A DNA stretch of 64,000 bases, taken from NCBI GenBank assembly GCA_028289585.1, contig JANQPI010000010.1, forward strand, positions 62,001-126,000, given 5' to 3'. The notes beneath the pieces are model-generated. The model was given only the letters and a program-made list of their open reading frames with translations. It was not told the DNA's origin and did no database searches. Positions 24,264-31,945 of the stretch are shown one piece after another. The stretch is from Candidatus Zixiibacteriota bacterium. GTDB lineage: Bacteria; Zixibacteria; MSB-5A5; GN15; FEB-12. Each line of letters begins with the position of its first letter. Position 1 is the stretch's first letter. The position numbers and the translations under genes were made by a program.

Positions 24264-25355
24264 ATGATGATGACCCGACTTCCACGCCTTGTCTACTTCA
24301 TATTGGTGCTCATCGTTACCACTGAGGGGAGCCTCGCGGTAACCTGTGACTACTGTTCTAAGGAGATAACGGGTCGGTACATTCAGATTGGCGAGTTCAC
24401 GTTTCATCCGCACCACTGGAAGTGCGGTGCCTGCCGCCAGCCGATCGGCGACCAGCCGTACTACGTGCAGGATAGCATGTGGTTTGATTCAACCTGCTTT
24501 GCCAATCTTCGAGCGCCTCGATGTGGGGAATGTGCCCGACCGATTCTTGATCTGGCGGTGATTTCAAACGGTCAGAAGTACCATCAGTCGTGCTACGACC
24601 GTTCCCACGGCGGGCAATGCCTCGTCTGTCAACAACCCGTCCGTGGTGCGTTCTATCGGGATCGGGATGGTCGCGTCGTGTGCGCCGATCACAAAGAAGA
24701 GGGTCGGGCCTGTTTCGTCTGCAACCGCTTTAGTTCGCCTTGGGTTGGTTCGGGGACAGTGACTCTCGACGACGGACGGTACGCCTGTGCCACGTGTCGG
24801 GCAACGGAGATTACTGACGATCGGCAGGGGATGCAGATTGCCCGCGACGTGCTAGAGGAGTTGGCCGATCTCGGTGTCGAGTTTGATGCCGATTTCGATC
24901 TGGAACTGGTCGATCGACCAACCCTGGTGCGTAAGGCGGACCAGTTTGGCCATTACACGACTGGTTTGACGGTCCGAAAGGAATACAGCTCGGCGTTCGG
25001 ACTCGTTCGGCGGATCGACTACGATATTTTCGTCCTCGACCACCTCCCCGAGACGTTTTTCCGTGAGGTGGTCGCCCATGAGTTGATGCATGTCTGGTTC
25101 CACGAGCAGGCACCCGACGTAACCGACCTTATCATTATAGAGGGGACGTGTGAGTACGTTGCTAGCCTCCTCCTGGAGCGGTCCCCGGCTCTCGATGCAC
25201 CATACTTTCTTGAGCGGATGCGTTCACGACCGGATCCGATCTACGGAGCCGGGTACCGCCTGGTTGCCGCTCAGCTGGCCGATCGGCCCCTCGATGACTG
25301 GTTGAACGCTCTCCGCCATAACACCTTCGCGGACTTTGATTTCACCACGGAATAG
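24264..25355 (+). CDS. Secreted LIM-domain protein with DA1-like metallopeptidase domain
   Basis: This 363-residue protein starts with a signal-like helix (LPRLVYFILVLIVTTEGSLA), so it should be exported. Residues 28-180 hold LIM-type zinc modules: C28-x2-C31 with HHWKC54-x2-C57, C87-x2-C90 with H107-x2-C110, C119-x2-C122 with C140-x2-H143, and C150-x2-C153 with C175-x2-C178. The C-terminal half has a zinc-peptidase site, HELMH (272-276), with E293 or E297 in IIEGTCEYVASLLLE as the likely third ligand. This order, LIM then HExxH then EGxC, matches plant DA1-family peptidases that cut ubiquitin-pathway proteins. Bacterial members exist in databases but are scarcely studied. An exported form cannot meet cytosolic ubiquitin, so its target is unknown. 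Confidence 0.83.
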   Translation: MMMTRLPRLVYFILVLIVTTEGSLAVTCDYCSKEITGRYIQIGEFTFHPHHWKCGACRQPIGDQPYYVQDSMWFDSTCFANLRAPRCGECARPILDLAVISNGQKYHQSCYDRSHGGQCLVCQQPVRGAFYRDRDGRVVCADHKEEGRACFVCNRFSSPWVGSGTVTLDDGRYACATCRATEITDDRQGMQIARDVLEELADLGVEFDADFDLELVDRPTLVRKADQFGHYTTGLTVRKEYSSAFGLVRRIDYDIFVLDHLPETFFREVVAHELMHVWFHEQAPDVTDLIIIEGTCEYVASLLLERSPALDAPYFLERMRSRPDPIYGAGYRLVAAQLADRPLDDWLNALRHNTFADFDFTTE

Positions 25356-25579: not shown

Positions 25580-26539
25580 GTGGGTAGATTCAAGTACAGC
25601 CGCTCGGGGGGGCAGTTGATCGTTCTCCCCGTTGTAGTATTACTGACAGCGCTAACGTTTCTGGCACTCGATTCATCCGGTCAGGCCGATATGACATCGG
25701 CCGACGACGAACTGTGCCTCGCCTGCCACGAGGGCTACATGGATGGCCTCGTCGACGGTGCTCATCGGTTGACCTCCGACGGCGCGGGAGGGATGGCGAT
25801 CGCGTGTGTCAGTTGCCATCCCAATGGTGACGACCATCTGGACAACCCGGTTTTGGGGAACATTGTCAACCCCGCCAATGCGGAGGCGGGCGTCATTGAG
25901 GCGGTCTGTGCCGACTGCCACAATCCTCATCTTGAGTTTCGCACGGCCGGCTGGGACGCGCACTTGTCGCTCGACCAGTCGTGTGTCTCGTGCCATGCGG
26001 TTCACAAGGGGACAATCGACGGACAGATGATTGATGCCGACGGTGACTATTGCCAGACCTGTCACGTCTCGGTCGCTAACCAGTTCCGCAAAGTGTCCAA
26101 CCACCCGCTGACTGACCAGAATGTTACCTGCGCTTCGTGTCACGTCATGTCGCCTGATGCACAGCCAATTATGGGTCACGGTCCGACCGAGACTTGCCTG
26201 GAGTGCCATTCCGATGTCGCGGGACCGTTCCGCTTTACGCATGCGCCGGCGAGTTCGTTCTCGGCGATGAGCGACGAGGGCTGTGTGTCCTGCCACGAGC
26301 CGCACGGGAGTTCGAACGACCGGCTGCTGAATCAGACGGGCGATATGCTCTGCTTCCAATGCCATGGCACACCGCCCACGCACGCCGGAGCGCATAATGG
26401 TGAATTCGACGGCCTGAGCTGCATGGAGTGTCACTCCGAGGTTCACGGTTCTTTCGATAATCTCTTCCTGCTCGATCCCGACCTGGGCCTCAAGCTCCGT
26501 GGCGAACAGGATGGTTGTTTCTGTCACGTCTACCGGTGA
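25580..26539 (+). CDS. Decaheme c-type cytochrome, MtrA/DmsE-like
   Basis: This roughly 319-residue exported protein has exactly ten CXXCH heme-attachment motifs (CLACH, CVSCH, CADCH, CVSCH, CQTCH, CASCH, CLECH, CVSCH, CFQCH, CMECH). Shewanella MtrA also has ten hemes in a similar length. MtrA-type proteins carry electrons from periplasmic donors through an outer-membrane barrel. A hydrophobic signal (LIVLPVVVLLTALTFLAL) lies near the N-terminus. GTG 25580 is chosen for GGGAG 8 bases upstream; longer starts with weak sites exist. The end CFCH has one residue too few and is not a heme site. It is the first gene of a three-gene operon with the barrel and the lipoprotein cytochrome. Confidence 0.9.
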   Translation: MGRFKYSRSGGQLIVLPVVVLLTALTFLALDSSGQADMTSADDELCLACHEGYMDGLVDGAHRLTSDGAGGMAIACVSCHPNGDDHLDNPVLGNIVNPANAEAGVIEAVCADCHNPHLEFRTAGWDAHLSLDQSCVSCHAVHKGTIDGQMIDADGDYCQTCHVSVANQFRKVSNHPLTDQNVTCASCHVMSPDAQPIMGHGPTETCLECHSDVAGPFRFTHAPASSFSAMSDEGCVSCHEPHGSSNDRLLNQTGDMLCFQCHGTPPTHAGAHNGEFDGLSCMECHSEVHGSFDNLFLLDPDLGLKLRGEQDGCFCHVYR

Positions 26540-26553
26540 GGAAGGGGAGAACG

Positions 26554-28116
26554 ATGAAACTTCGTTACGTTCTAATGGCGGTCGCCCTCATCCTGTTGGT
26601 GACACCGCTGCCCGCGCAGGAGAACCTGACCGGGCGCGTAAAAATCGGATGGAATCTCGTCGACCGCGAGGGTAACCGTTCTGTTGATCAGGGGACGTTC
26701 AACCTCTACCAGGGCGGCGCTCTAGATCTGGAGAACTTCCGGTATCGTTTTGACAACGGTATCTCACTGCGCGGAAATCTTCGCTCGATCTTGCTGCCGA
26801 ACCGCAATCTGACGATTACCGCCGATAAGCGGGGCGTTGGTGGCGTGACTGTGCACCACGACGGCTACCGCCGTTCGTACAATTTCGACGGTGATATCGA
26901 AACGAAACGCTTTCGGACCAACGCCCGGGCGTGGGTCGACGTTACCGACCGGATTCGCGTTACCGCGGGCGGTGGTGTGACAAGCAAGTCGGGCGAGTCA
27001 CTTGAATTGACCGAACCGGTCGGTGGCAACCCGCTCGCGTTGACTGATTTCCAGCACACGTTCTATCAGGCCGGAGTGACGTATCGTAACGGCCGACGGA
27101 TCGTTCGCGCTACGTATCACGGATCGAACTTCGCGAACGACATTGATAGCCGGAACGATCGGAATACGATGCAAATTCGGGTCACCGGCTCCGACCCGAT
27201 GCCCGGATTCGAGCGGCTCGTCTTTAACGCCGGTTACCAGTACTATCAGGCCAAACTGACCGAGCGCGGCGACACAACCCTTGATGCCAACACATTGTGG
27301 GGCGGAGCGCGCCTCTTCTGGCCGGGTGGCTGGACGTTTGAGTACAGCATCTTCTTCGATCGCGCCGAGCGCGAGTCCGATGTTGTCGCGACCGATCAGA
27401 TCACCCAGGCATTCACCGCGGCCAAGACGTTTGGCGCCTTCGCGGGGCTCTCCGCCGGCTACCGGTTCGGAGCCAACGATGATCTCTTCACCGAGAATAG
27501 CGACGAGGGCTTCAATGTCGCCGGTTGGGTAAAGCCGATTCGCAATCTGACGTTGCGGGCGGGCTATGGTATTGATAATCGGGACCTCGAGTCCGGTGTG
27601 CGGGCCCTGGGTAAACGGGAGTCCTCTCGCGGCTATGCCATCGCTCGCTATCGCACGCCATTCGGGTGGGTGCGAGCCGCAGCCCGCAATCGTACCGTTG
27701 ATTACGATGATATCGGTTCCTCGACCGAGTACATGTCGGGAGCATTCGATGCCGGCCTGAATCTCTTCCGCTACGGTCAGTTCCGGGCCGCCTACTCCTA
27801 CCGGAATGGTGAGTTCGAAAACGCCGAGGGGATGTTCGAGTTCTCCGAACACCTGGTAAGTGGCGAGGTCGAGACGGCAACGTATTGGCGGACGAACCTC
27901 GGGTTTGGGGGAAGCTACCTGCGGAGCCGTCAGGATATCGATATCGAGCGGTTCTCGGTCCGCTTCTTCGGTCGCTATGCACTCGACAACGGTATCGGCC
28001 TGGAGGCCGAGTATCGTGCCGTGAATTTCGACGATTTCAATGATATCACCATACCGTACACGCAGTACCTCACCGAGAACATCGTGCGGGTGGTTCTCAC
28101 ATACGACCTGCGTTGA
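26554..28116 (+). CDS. Outer membrane beta-barrel of the porin-cytochrome module
   Basis: This roughly 520-residue protein has a signal peptide (MKLRYVLMAVALILLVTPLPAQ) and GGGGAG before the ATG. The mature part is a continuous series of amphipathic beta strands with aromatic girdles (RYRFDNGISLRGN, RVTAGGGVTSKSG, FERLVFNAGYQYYQA and so on) ending VRVVLTYDLR, as expected of a large barrel of more than 20 strands. It lies 14 bases after the decaheme gene and 83 before the multiheme lipoprotein. In Mtr- or Geobacter-type complexes a barrel encloses the periplasmic cytochrome. It has no N-terminal CXXC of canonical MtrB, so assignment as the porin rests on barrel character plus context. Confidence 0.82.
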   Translation: MKLRYVLMAVALILLVTPLPAQENLTGRVKIGWNLVDREGNRSVDQGTFNLYQGGALDLENFRYRFDNGISLRGNLRSILLPNRNLTITADKRGVGGVTVHHDGYRRSYNFDGDIETKRFRTNARAWVDVTDRIRVTAGGGVTSKSGESLELTEPVGGNPLALTDFQHTFYQAGVTYRNGRRIVRATYHGSNFANDIDSRNDRNTMQIRVTGSDPMPGFERLVFNAGYQYYQAKLTERGDTTLDANTLWGGARLFWPGGWTFEYSIFFDRAERESDVVATDQITQAFTAAKTFGAFAGLSAGYRFGANDDLFTENSDEGFNVAGWVKPIRNLTLRAGYGIDNRDLESGVRALGKRESSRGYAIARYRTPFGWVRAAARNRTVDYDDIGSSTEYMSGAFDAGLNLFRYGQFRAAYSYRNGEFENAEGMFEFSEHLVSGEVETATYWRTNLGFGGSYLRSRQDIDIERFSVRFFGRYALDNGIGLEAEYRAVNFDDFNDITIPYTQYLTENIVRVVLTYDLR

Positions 28117-28199
28117 GGAGTGATGGACGGGAGATGACGCCAATGAAACAGAGCATGAATTCAACTAGCTGTGGGATAGACGAACATAAGGGAGGTCCT

Positions 28200-29297
28200 A
28201 TGAACAAGTCGCGACAACTGTTAGTCGGCTTGCTCGGGCTACTGGTGGTGTTTGCGGGGTGCGAACGCGAGATAACCGGCACGTTGCCGACCGCGTCAAA
28301 CGAAAGCGACAACTGCTTCGAATGCCACAATGGTCTGCTCGATCAGGCCCAAGGGGAATGGGCGAACTCGGTCCATGCCTCAGGCAACAACATCGATTAC
28401 ACCAACCGCGGTGGACTCGACTGTACCCGTTGCCACAACCAGGAAGGCTATCTGTTCTACCTGGAAACCGGGCAGGTTGCGGCCGAGCCGTTTGCTAACG
28501 TCAGCGCCATCGGCTGTTTTGCCTGTCATAATCCGCACGAGGACGGTGATAACTCGATTCGTTTCGAAGGTGCCGTTACCCTGCCCAACGGTGTCCTGTT
28601 CGACTACATGGCGGGTAACCAGTGTGCCACCTGTCACCAGTCCCGGTTTGACGTTCGTAACATCACCGACGACTTCAACGTGACCAGCTTCCGCTTTGGT
28701 CCGCACCACGGCCCGCAGGGTGAGATGGTGGCCGGAACCGGTGGTTGGGAGTTTGAGGGTGCCGGCGTCTTTACCTATGCGACCACGCCGCACCGCGTCG
28801 TTGTCCGCGATGCCTGCGCCGGCTGCCACATGGGTGATGTGGCCACGCATATTGGCTACCAGATTGGTGGTCACTCGTTCCGGATGCGCGACGAAGGGCT
28901 TACTGAGGATATGTCCCAGTTCTGTGCCGACCCATCATGCCACCCCGGAGTCGAGTCGTTTGACTTCATGGCCAACGGCGACTTCGATGGCAACGGCCTG
29001 ACTGAGGGCTATCAGACCGAATTCCAGGGACTTGTCGATTCGCTCGAAGCGATCCTGTTCGCACGCGGATTGATCGAGGCGAACGGCCGTCGTGTCACCG
29101 GTGTCATCGCCGATCGTCACGTTGCCGGATCCGTCTACAACTGGGTGTTCGCCTGGGAAGATCAGTCGAACGGGAGCCACAATTGGCAGTACATCAGCCG
29201 TCTGCTGATTGCCTCGATCGATTACCTGAATGCGAACCCGGCGCCTCCTGGCGGTGACTTCGTGCAACCCCTGGCTGACGACGGCACCTACTACTAG
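28200..29297 (+). CDS. Multiheme c-type cytochrome lipoprotein (outer-surface candidate)
   Basis: This 365-residue protein begins with a lipoprotein signal: MNKSRQLLVGLLGLLVV then FAGC with Cys21 as the lipidated residue. Five CXXCH motifs are clear (CFECH, CTRCH, CFACH, CATCH, CAGCH) and a CADPSCH gives a possible CX4CH heme. The C-terminal 120 residues are heme-free and helical. ATG 28200 has GGGAGGT directly upstream; an upstream frame to 28113 is ignored. In porin-cytochrome systems a lipoprotein of this kind sits outside the barrel and passes electrons to extracellular acceptors. With the two preceding genes it gives the complete three-part set. A terminator follows at 29331. Confidence 0.87.
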   Translation: MNKSRQLLVGLLGLLVVFAGCEREITGTLPTASNESDNCFECHNGLLDQAQGEWANSVHASGNNIDYTNRGGLDCTRCHNQEGYLFYLETGQVAAEPFANVSAIGCFACHNPHEDGDNSIRFEGAVTLPNGVLFDYMAGNQCATCHQSRFDVRNITDDFNVTSFRFGPHHGPQGEMVAGTGGWEFEGAGVFTYATTPHRVVVRDACAGCHMGDVATHIGYQIGGHSFRMRDEGLTEDMSQFCADPSCHPGVESFDFMANGDFDGNGLTEGYQTEFQGLVDSLEAILFARGLIEANGRRVTGVIADRHVAGSVYNWVFAWEDQSNGSHNWQYISRLLIASIDYLNANPAPPGGDFVQPLADDGTYY

Positions 29298-29330
29298 ATC
29301 TCATTTTCTCTTCATTACCGTTGGTTTCCG

Positions 29331-29354
29331 CGGGCGGCTCATTCGAGCCGCCCG
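29331..29354 (+). terminator. Terminator of porin-cytochrome operon
   Basis: CGGGCGGCTC and GAGCCGCCCG form a perfect 10-base stem around ATTC, followed by TTTCC. It lies 33 bases after the stop codon of the lipoprotein cytochrome. Confidence 0.85.
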
Positions 29355-29533
29355 TTTCCGTGTTGCGAACTACTTCGGATTACCATCTGTGTGATAGCTA
29401 CTTAGCGACAGCGCTTGTGAAAAAACGAGCGAAGTACCCCTCGCTAGCTCCCTGACAAAACGCTAATCTCTGAGTCAAGCCGTTGTCTGACTATGCGTTC
29501 AGAAATAGCTACGAGTCACTATTAGTCAGTGAA

Positions 29534-29776: not shown

Positions 29777-31945
29777 ATGCTATCATTAATCGTACGTAGG
29801 ACGCTCGGGGTATTCGCTATTGCGGCGCTTGCTTTGGGCCCAGTGGAGGCGGGCACGTTGTCAAATGACCTGTCCTATCGCCTCACGGATGTTACGGGGG
29901 TCTTCCTCGATTCCACGACTAACATTGATTTCGAACTGCAATACAACGGCCCATCTGATGATGCCATCACCCAGGTATCCGGCCGTTTCTCTTTTGATGC
30001 GCAACGCCTTCGATTCGACAGTGTTACGGTCGGCTCGGCTTGGGGCGGTAACGCGTCCTCGAACGTTGAGGGGACCGGCAACATCAGCTTTACGCTAACC
30101 GGCGACCGTGTGGATGCAGATGTGACATCCTTCGAGCAGTTTGCACTCATTTGGTTCACGGCGCTCTGCAACTATGAACTGACGACGGAAGTCGTGAGTT
30201 TTGATACCGGGAGCGCCAGCTATAACGAAATCGACGTCGATACTTCCGGCGGCTTCATCGGAGTCTTTACGCCCACGTCGTATGACAACGGTAGCGTGAC
30301 GAGCGGTGACTACGAACTCACGTTGGAGTTAAACGATATCACCATTACCGATGCCAACCAGACCGGCATCGTGGAAATGCGTGCAACAACGAACGTCGAT
30401 CACTTCGGTTTTCAGGCTGATATGACGTATGACACCACTAAGCTCAAGATCGTTTCGATCACTAATATGGGAGTCTATCCTAACTTTACGCTGGATACAA
30501 GCACCGCAGGACTCATCGATGTCTACTTCTATGACGGCGTGATGTTTTCGTTGCCGGCGTACACGGATACGTTGGTGCTCAAGGTAGAGTTTGAGCCGAT
30601 CTGCGGGACGTTCACGTTTGACTCGACAACGGTTGATATCGATGAGGACAGCACGAAGACGTTTCTCCTGGTCCAGGCCTTCTGCAGCCTCACGTTCTTT
30701 GTTAAAGCAGATGTCGATACGTCCGTGTTTGCCTTTACTCCGAGCGCCACTTATCGGCTCACGCCAACCGCTACCGGAACGGCGCTCTCCGCCGCGAGTG
30801 ACCTTGTCTACGATCTGGCGGTTAAGAGTACATTTCCCATCGGTCAGAATAATGGTGCCGATGATCCAATCGGCCTTGTCTTCGATGCCGGAGACTACTT
30901 GCAACACATTTCAACTGACGGGTTTACCGAAATCTCTCAGGGGAATTTCGTTTATCTCGAGCAGGATAGTGTGTTTGCCTGGCCCGATACGAGCCTCTTT
31001 GTCGATCGCAACCAACTCACGTTCAATTTCGATACGTCGGGGTACGCTATCGAATGGGAAGATCGGACATTCGGCGTTGAGTGGTTGGGCCTGAAGACGA
31101 TCAGCTCAAATGATCGAAAGACGACGGCACCCGATACCTCGGGTTGCTTTGTCGCTGACTCGGCCAATGGTGGTCTGACCTACAGTGTGGTTGAACAGGA
31201 GGTTGCCGTGGCTCGGTTCTATCTGAGTTCGTCAGTCTCGTGGGATGGTTATGCCTGTGGTTATCGGGGGCAGGTCTACATGCAGGCGAATTTTAATGTC
31301 AACGATTTCGAGGTCACCTTCACCGCCAATTCGAATCGAACGTTAGCGCTTGTCGATTTGGCAGCGGGTCTCACGGCGACGACCATCAACGCCTACACGG
31401 TAAAGCTCTCTGCCAATGGCTCCTGGTCAGGTTACTCGGGCTCGATCAGCTCCAATGATCCTGTTCAGCTTTGCCGGTTTGCGCCGGGACCGGGCAGTGC
31501 GTGCGGTATTGGCGTCAACAACTACTCGATCACCATAACGCCGAGTGCGGGTGAGGTAATCAATGATGCCAACAGCTCGAAAGAACTGATCGACTACGAC
31601 GGCCAGAGCCTCACGGTCTCATGCTTCAGCCAGGGCTGCATCGGCTTAAGCCCCAACGTTGAGACCGAAGCGGAGCTGCCGATTACATTCGACGTGGGGA
31701 ACAACTACCCCAATCCGTTCAACCCGACGACGACAATCAACTTCACCGTACCGACTGCGACCGAGTGGTCCGTGACGATCTACAACGTCACCGGTCAGAT
31801 CGTTTCAACCTTCTCCGGAATGACTGCCGCAGCGGGTCCGGTCGAGGTCATTTGGGATGCCTCGGATGTCGCATCCGGTGTCTATCTCTACCGAGTCACC
31901 GCCGGTGAAAACACCGCCACGAAGAAGATGATGCTGCTCAAGTAA
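29777..31945 (+). CDS. Type IX secreted protein with cohesin-like domains
   Basis: This 722-residue exported protein has AAGGAGG before the ATG and a signal peptide (RRTLGVFAIAALALGPVEAG). Residues about 30-165 and 180-310 look like tandem cohesin-type beta-sandwiches: FELQYNGPSDDAITQVSG with FSFDAQRLRFDSVTVG, and LELNDITITDANQTGIVEMR with DMTYDTTKLKIVSITNMG. The middle is further beta-rich sequence. The last 85 residues are a type IX sorting domain: NNYPNPFNPTTTINFTVP, SVTIYNVTGQIVSTFSG, ASDVASGVYLYRVTAG, TKKMMLLK. It is therefore predicted to be exported by type IX secretion and held on the cell surface. The cohesin-like part could bind dockerin-like tails such as that at 6269-7615 (inference). 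A terminator follows. Confidence 0.85.
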   Translation: MLSLIVRRTLGVFAIAALALGPVEAGTLSNDLSYRLTDVTGVFLDSTTNIDFELQYNGPSDDAITQVSGRFSFDAQRLRFDSVTVGSAWGGNASSNVEGTGNISFTLTGDRVDADVTSFEQFALIWFTALCNYELTTEVVSFDTGSASYNEIDVDTSGGFIGVFTPTSYDNGSVTSGDYELTLELNDITITDANQTGIVEMRATTNVDHFGFQADMTYDTTKLKIVSITNMGVYPNFTLDTSTAGLIDVYFYDGVMFSLPAYTDTLVLKVEFEPICGTFTFDSTTVDIDEDSTKTFLLVQAFCSLTFFVKADVDTSVFAFTPSATYRLTPTATGTALSAASDLVYDLAVKSTFPIGQNNGADDPIGLVFDAGDYLQHISTDGFTEISQGNFVYLEQDSVFAWPDTSLFVDRNQLTFNFDTSGYAIEWEDRTFGVEWLGLKTISSNDRKTTAPDTSGCFVADSANGGLTYSVVEQEVAVARFYLSSSVSWDGYACGYRGQVYMQANFNVNDFEVTFTANSNRTLALVDLAAGLTATTINAYTVKLSANGSWSGYSGSISSNDPVQLCRFAPGPGSACGIGVNNYSITITPSAGEVINDANSSKELIDYDGQSLTVSCFSQGCIGLSPNVETEAELPITFDVGNNYPNPFNPTTTINFTVPTATEWSVTIYNVTGQIVSTFSGMTAAAGPVEVIWDASDVASGVYLYRVTAGENTATKKMMLLK

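Follow-up and report, generated by a model that had tools for sequence, protein, structure and literature searches.

A candidate Mtr-type electron conduit with a putative eleven-heme cytochrome and a compact barrel in Candidatus Zixiibacteriota

The MtrCAB complex of Shewanella (6r2q; PMC7198977) combines a ten-heme cytochrome, MtrA, with the 26-strand barrel MtrB and the surface cytochrome MtrC; the crystal structure shows MtrA with its C-terminus pointing outward and its heme 10 touching MtrC. MtoAB and PioAB are likewise MtrA/MtrB-type pairs, yet they have no surface cytochrome (PMC7096707), and according to Shi et al. every identified MtrA, MtoA or PioA protein carries ten hemes, known or predicted (PMC4245776). 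In Zixibacteria, porin-cytochrome and mtrAB genes are already on record (PMC7005843; PMC9769843), and a survey of mtrCAB lists three phyla, Zixibacteria not among them (PMC8805035). Here we analyse a stretch of 64,000 nucleotides (the window) from a Candidatus Zixiibacteriota bacterium (GCA_028289585.1, contig JANQPI010000010.1, positions 62,001 to 126,000), in which three open reading frames lie in tandem, all on the plus strand: gene 1 (25580-26539), gene 2 (26554-28116) and gene 3 (28200-29297). We propose, with a probability of roughly 0.8, that they encode an Mtr-type conduit across the outer membrane, composed of a candidate eleven-heme wire within a compact barrel and of a surface cytochrome. 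The initial annotation had read the three genes as a complete porin-cytochrome module in an FCB-type bacterium, and both statements hold, as the periplasmic decaheme-type cytochrome, the barrel and the surface lipoprotein cytochrome are all present.

The locus shares with MtrCAB an MtrA homologue, a barrel of 26 strands and MtrB fold, a surface lipoprotein cytochrome and the functional layout. It differs in the wire, with eleven candidate heme sites here and ten in Shewanella, in the barrel, with about 500 mature residues and no CXXC here and about 650 residues in Shewanella, and in the third protein, which is not MtrC; the gene order is A, B, surface cytochrome. The proposed MtrABC composition is thus right for the MtrA- and MtrB-type parts and has to be amended in the count of candidate heme sites and in the third protein. 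The porin-cytochrome (Pcc) systems of Geobacter (OmaB/OmbB/OmcB; PMC4245776) follow the same three-part logic and have barrels smaller than classical MtrB; by description they are set apart by barrels predicted at 18-22 strands and periplasmic cytochromes of 5-14 hemes. Gene 1 matches MtrA directly, whereas the contrast with Pcc is drawn from that description rather than from OmaB/OmbB sequences. The undecaheme electron transfer pathway (Uet; PMC10734462) is also a porin-cytochrome system, and its cytochrome UetJ has 11-12 hemes; compared by description rather than by UetJ sequence, it has another gene set, including triheme cytochromes, NHL proteins and a peptidylprolyl isomerase.

An MtrA homologue with a candidate eleventh heme site

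Gene 1 (25580..26539, plus strand), whose translation starts at GTG, encodes an MtrA-like multiheme cytochrome of 319 residues (P0001) with a signal peptide and, between residues 46 and 285, exactly ten CXXCH motifs; shuffles of its own composition contain 0.11 on average and 4 at most. Against the MtrA chain of the Shewanella baltica Mtr structure (6r2q_A) the single sequence matches at 3.5e-23 over residues 43-291 and the family profile at 3.2e-47, a full-length homology in which the ten heme motifs stand in register. The score against the DmsE-family model TIGR03508 is 150.4 bits, below the curated cut-off of 192.2. A tree of 83 MtrA-type proteins places the gene 1 product together with 27 relatives on one side of a branch with support of 100/99; of the nearest gene 1 relatives that bear a name, most are Candidatus Zixiibacteriota.

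MtrA ends shortly after heme 10. The gene 1 clade does not; its members continue into a C-terminal extension, absent from canonical MtrA, that holds an eleventh candidate site. In gene 1 this site is C313-F-C-H316 (CXCH; 26516..26527, plus strand), which the initial annotation, correct in its count of ten CXXCH, had overlooked. Judged by sequence, the candidate site is conserved throughout the clade: it is found in all 28 members with an intact end, the window protein counted, and in none of 51 canonical ten-heme MtrA proteins. Clade members have a Cys and a CysHis pair about 20-30 residues past the tenth motif, whereas in the 51 canonical proteins the chain stops about 14-16 residues past it. 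The site is spelled CXCH in the window protein and its close relatives, CX4CH in most members and CXXCH in a few. Its second Cys and its His are invariant across the clade while the spacing varies between 1, 2 and 4 residues, and when the motif itself is left out of the tree building, six changes are needed to explain the three spellings among 53 proteins. The two groups are also separated by their histidines. A His after heme 6 occurs in 51/51 canonical proteins and 0/28 clade members, and two His between hemes 9 and 10 in 28/28 clade members versus 4/51 canonical proteins. Weaker evidence comes from a His at most five residues past heme 3, which all 28 clade members have, as do, by position count, 23 of the 51 canonical proteins.

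The compact barrel and the surface cytochrome

Gene 2 (26554..28116, plus strand) begins 14 bases after the end of gene 1 and encodes a protein of 520 residues (P0002) without a single Cys. AlphaFold2 models it as a compact MtrB-like outer-membrane barrel of 26 strands (predicted local distance difference test, pLDDT, 88.4; predicted template-modelling score, pTM, 0.76), the strand number of MtrB (PMC7198977). The best PDB match of the model is MtrB itself (6r2q_B), on which it superposes with a template-modelling (TM) score of 0.80, Z 27.4 and 2.6 A over 488 residues; the other listed PDB barrels reach Z of at most 18.4 and TM of at most 0.55. A profile of 39 canonical barrels recovers six short barrels at 2e-9 to 3e-15 (best 3.3e-15) and zero reversed decoys, and the profile-profile alignment of short and canonical barrels gives 99.6% over 516 columns. 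Thus, by profile and by model, gene 2 is a divergent branch of MtrB. A search of PF11854 (MtrB_PioB), which the initial annotation had suggested, succeeds with 3 of 27 gene 2 relatives (best 3.2e-6) and fails with gene 2 of the window. The barrels of this branch are short, at 509-616 residues (median 522) versus 631-840 (median 734) in canonical ones, and the modelled extracellular loops of gene 2 are no longer than about 13 residues, as read from the strand list with a periplasmic N-terminus assumed.

The lack of the N-terminal CXXC of MtrB had been taken as a hint of a separate barrel family. We reject it as a marker. Among the MtrB-type barrels sampled, CXXC is confined to MtrB of Shewanella and Ferrimonas and therefore does not define the wider MtrB family; moreover, gene 2 is modelled with the MtrB fold, and the canonical profile recognises several of the short barrels.

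Gene 3 (28200..29297, plus strand) encodes a lipoprotein multiheme cytochrome of 365 residues (P0003). Its lipobox, VFAG/C21, places the lipid-anchor Cys at 28260..28262 (plus strand), the first residue of a conserved C-[ED]-R-[EK] signature. The initial annotation had recognised a multiheme lipoprotein, and its lipobox and five CXXCH motifs are there; to these a sixth candidate site has to be added, C242-ADPS-C-H248 (CX4CH; 28923..28943, plus strand), whose position is invariant among homologues while its spacing varies. The gene 3 family profile matches OcwA, the outer cell wall cytochrome of Thermincola (6i5b; 2.3e-6), which is its best PDB profile match, as well as NrfA and octaheme nitrite reductases in their C-terminal halves, all within 2e-6 to 2e-5; it is the C-terminal part of gene 3 that resembles the OcwA/NrfA superfamily. 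Against the OmcA/MtrC model TIGR03507 gene 3 scores 30.2 bits, far from the cut-off of 209.3, and we set aside a match to the MtrC domain PF22113 as generic because gene 1 matches it too. By these comparisons gene 3 is closest to OcwA/NrfA-type cytochromes and is not an MtrC homologue. Like OcwA it would be a terminal surface cytochrome; unlike OcwA, which is a Gram-positive cell-wall protein, gene 3 has six candidate sites and a lipid anchor.

In relatives the third-gene slot is occupied by a 5-6-heme protein like gene 3, by an 8-heme protein, or by proteins some 700 residues long that contain 12-16 heme motifs and in which an 8-heme part is followed by a gene-3-like part or is present twice. 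Homologues of gene 3 have the lipobox followed by C-[EDT]-R-[EK], and [ED]R[EK] follows the lipid Cys in nearly all slot proteins. In a simple scan, C-[ED]-R-[EK] at the lipid Cys (28260-28271 in the window) occurs in 37/37 multiheme lipoproteins and in 0/8 other lipoproteins. The signature may perhaps act in surface sorting or export, a role that we do not claim because eight controls are too few.

Conservation and genome context

The initial annotation had proposed a structure prediction and a survey of synteny as decisive for the module, and both speak for it. Besides the barrel model described above, a multiheme gene follows genes 1 and 2, in that order, in 34 of the 36 relatives inspected for the third gene, and one of the two exceptions is due to a contig end. 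Of 132 genomes from the phylum, 71 have the barrel by its profile; among the better genomes the count is 49 of 78. When related loci were sought in genome contigs with the barrel alone, no match was obtained; the barrel alignment is too variable for a pattern scan, and the MtrA alignment is usable. Some relatives (L074, L075, L082) bear doubtful submitter labels (Calditrichota, Latescibacterota, FCB group), and we do not claim spread to other phyla.

A purine-rich, Shine-Dalgarno-like stretch lies immediately 5' of each of the three start codons. Downstream of gene 3, a GC-rich hairpin of 11 bp (29330..29355, plus strand; -25.2 kcal/mol, z -4.9) resembles a terminator with a poor T tract. The strong terminator previously assigned here is accurate as to the hairpin; the terminator scan made no call, because only three T follow it. 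Elsewhere in the window, CXXCH appears only as isolated copies in short unrelated frames. Upstream, 24264-25355 (plus strand) encodes a protein that looks secreted and combines LIM domains with a DA1-like metallopeptidase domain containing HELMH, unusual for a bacterium; directly 3' of the conduit genes, 29777-31945 (plus strand) encodes a protein of 722 residues that has weak cohesin matches and a C-terminal sorting domain of type IX secretion.

The genome that contains the window (3.15 Mb, 99.6% complete) has a second Mtr-type locus on contig 16, with a decaheme GSU2203-type cytochrome and a GSU2204-type barrel with one in-frame TGA. The GSU2203/GSU2204 pair (NF041028/NF041027) is also of MtrA/MtrB type. 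It is distinguished by ten hemes and by a long barrel with a selenocysteine (Sec, TGA) codon and CXXCH, and the window proteins score below or outside both models. At the same locus (L042:367-5200, minus strand), proteins of 681 and 927 residues join 11 and 19 CXXCH, respectively, to a cytochrome b-like membrane domain; they are candidate quinol oxidases feeding the conduits. The genome also encodes two cytochrome c assembly proteins of CcmF/CcmC type, named by size, one NapC/NrfH-type match and a heme-copper oxidase; ResB was not found in the genome alongside the CcmF/CcmC-size proteins. The assembly proteins and the two multiheme-cytochrome b membrane proteins support the conduit reading. 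As an observation outside the window, the contig 16 barrel (L042:5356-7572, minus strand) has its TGA at residue 583 within a conserved VALFDGU motif. A single TGA is found in nearly every full-length homologue of this barrel in the phylum, and a tRNA-Sec that exceeds the gathering score is present in the genome. At 417 bits (cut-off 350), the barrel belongs to NF041027, the known family of GSU2204 (seleno)proteins.

Proposed conduit, alternatives and significance

In the conduit that we propose, the barrel of gene 2 would enclose and insulate the gene 1 cytochrome, a heme wire whose N-terminal hemes would accept electrons from periplasmic carriers. The C-terminal end of gene 1 would point outward, so that heme 11 follows just past the point at which an ordinary MtrA stops. 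Since the MtrA C-terminus faces outward and heme 10 contacts MtrC, heme 11 is predicted at the outer mouth; the short modelled extracellular loops of the compact barrel also make this position probable. From there, electrons would pass to the lipoprotein cytochrome of gene 3, anchored at the cell surface; this protein may in turn reduce (less likely oxidise) a substrate outside the cell, for example Fe(III) minerals, humics or a partner cell.

Several points weigh against our interpretation. Heme attachment at CXCH is rarely documented, and the AlphaFold2 model of gene 1 is poor, with pLDDT below 50 at the C-terminus, so that the position of heme 11 is not read from the model. Histidines outside the motifs number 11 to 16 in canonical MtrA as well; given these spare residues, the count of eleven ligands in the clade is suggestive, not exact. 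As to the barrel, gene 2 of the window, taken alone, has no sequence match in Pfam, NCBIfam or PDB. Alternatively, the locus could be an ordinary ten-heme Mtr conduit whose C-terminal CXCH, CX4CH or CXXCH is free of heme and forms a disulfide or a Cys/His cluster that binds a metal or has a structural role. That CXCH is a non-standard heme motif, which the gene 1 model is unable to place, is in keeping with this explanation, but we consider it unlikely. An invariant Cys and His whose spacing shifts about six times on the tree agree better with a heme site than with a fixed structural cluster, a standard CXXCH occupies the same site in some clade members, and a CKCH site is mentioned as functional in heme binding in a Kuenenia cytochrome (PMC7096707). 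We infer that the CXCH of gene 1 attaches a heme.

Other alternatives concern what the complex does rather than how it is built. MtrA/MtrB-type pairs work in both directions, MtoAB and PioAB with iron oxidation and MtrCAB with reduction (PMC7005843), and the genome encodes a heme-copper oxidase; an inward-flowing conduit, taking electrons from Fe(II) or a partner cell, is thus conceivable, though we think it rather doubtful. The conserved surface lipoprotein cytochrome of the third gene is absent from the Sideroxydans and Rhodopseudomonas complexes (PMC7096707), and the second locus pairs an Mtr-type module with quinol-oxidase-like membrane cytochromes; both favour outward flow and neither settles the direction. 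Still less probable, in our view, is that gene 3 is a catalytic NrfA/octaheme nitrite reductase relative, that is, a surface nitrite- or sulfite-type reductase supplied with electrons through genes 1 and 2. Its profile does match OcwA, NrfA and octaheme nitrite reductase chains, but the Lys-ligated active-site heme of NrfA has no counterpart in gene 3, all six candidate sites of which end in CH, and the 8-heme or 12-16-heme proteins in the same slot fit a general surface reductase better.

Taken as an Mtr-type conduit, the locus leads us to favour, with some reserve, a distinct Mtr superfamily branch that is widespread in Zixibacteria, combines an eleven-heme wire with a minimal 26-strand barrel and binds its outermost heme through interchangeable CXCH, CXXCH and CX4CH motifs. 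We found no description of such an eleven-heme, compact-barrel clade in a literature search, to which subscription journals were mostly out of reach. With this finding, an uncultured phylum unlisted in the mtrCAB survey (PMC8805035) joins those credited with an Mtr-type conduit, with one in about half of its sampled genomes. PF11854 and TIGR03508 miss the window proteins, and annotation pipelines will therefore undercount such conduits. Structurally, a compact barrel with a longer wire stands in simple contrast to MtrAB. Should heme 11 prove real, CXCH, CX4CH and CXXCH at one position would extend the single contracted heme motif that we found reported to a whole clade, and this interchangeable set would form a naturally occurring series on which contracted and expanded attachment of heme could be tested.

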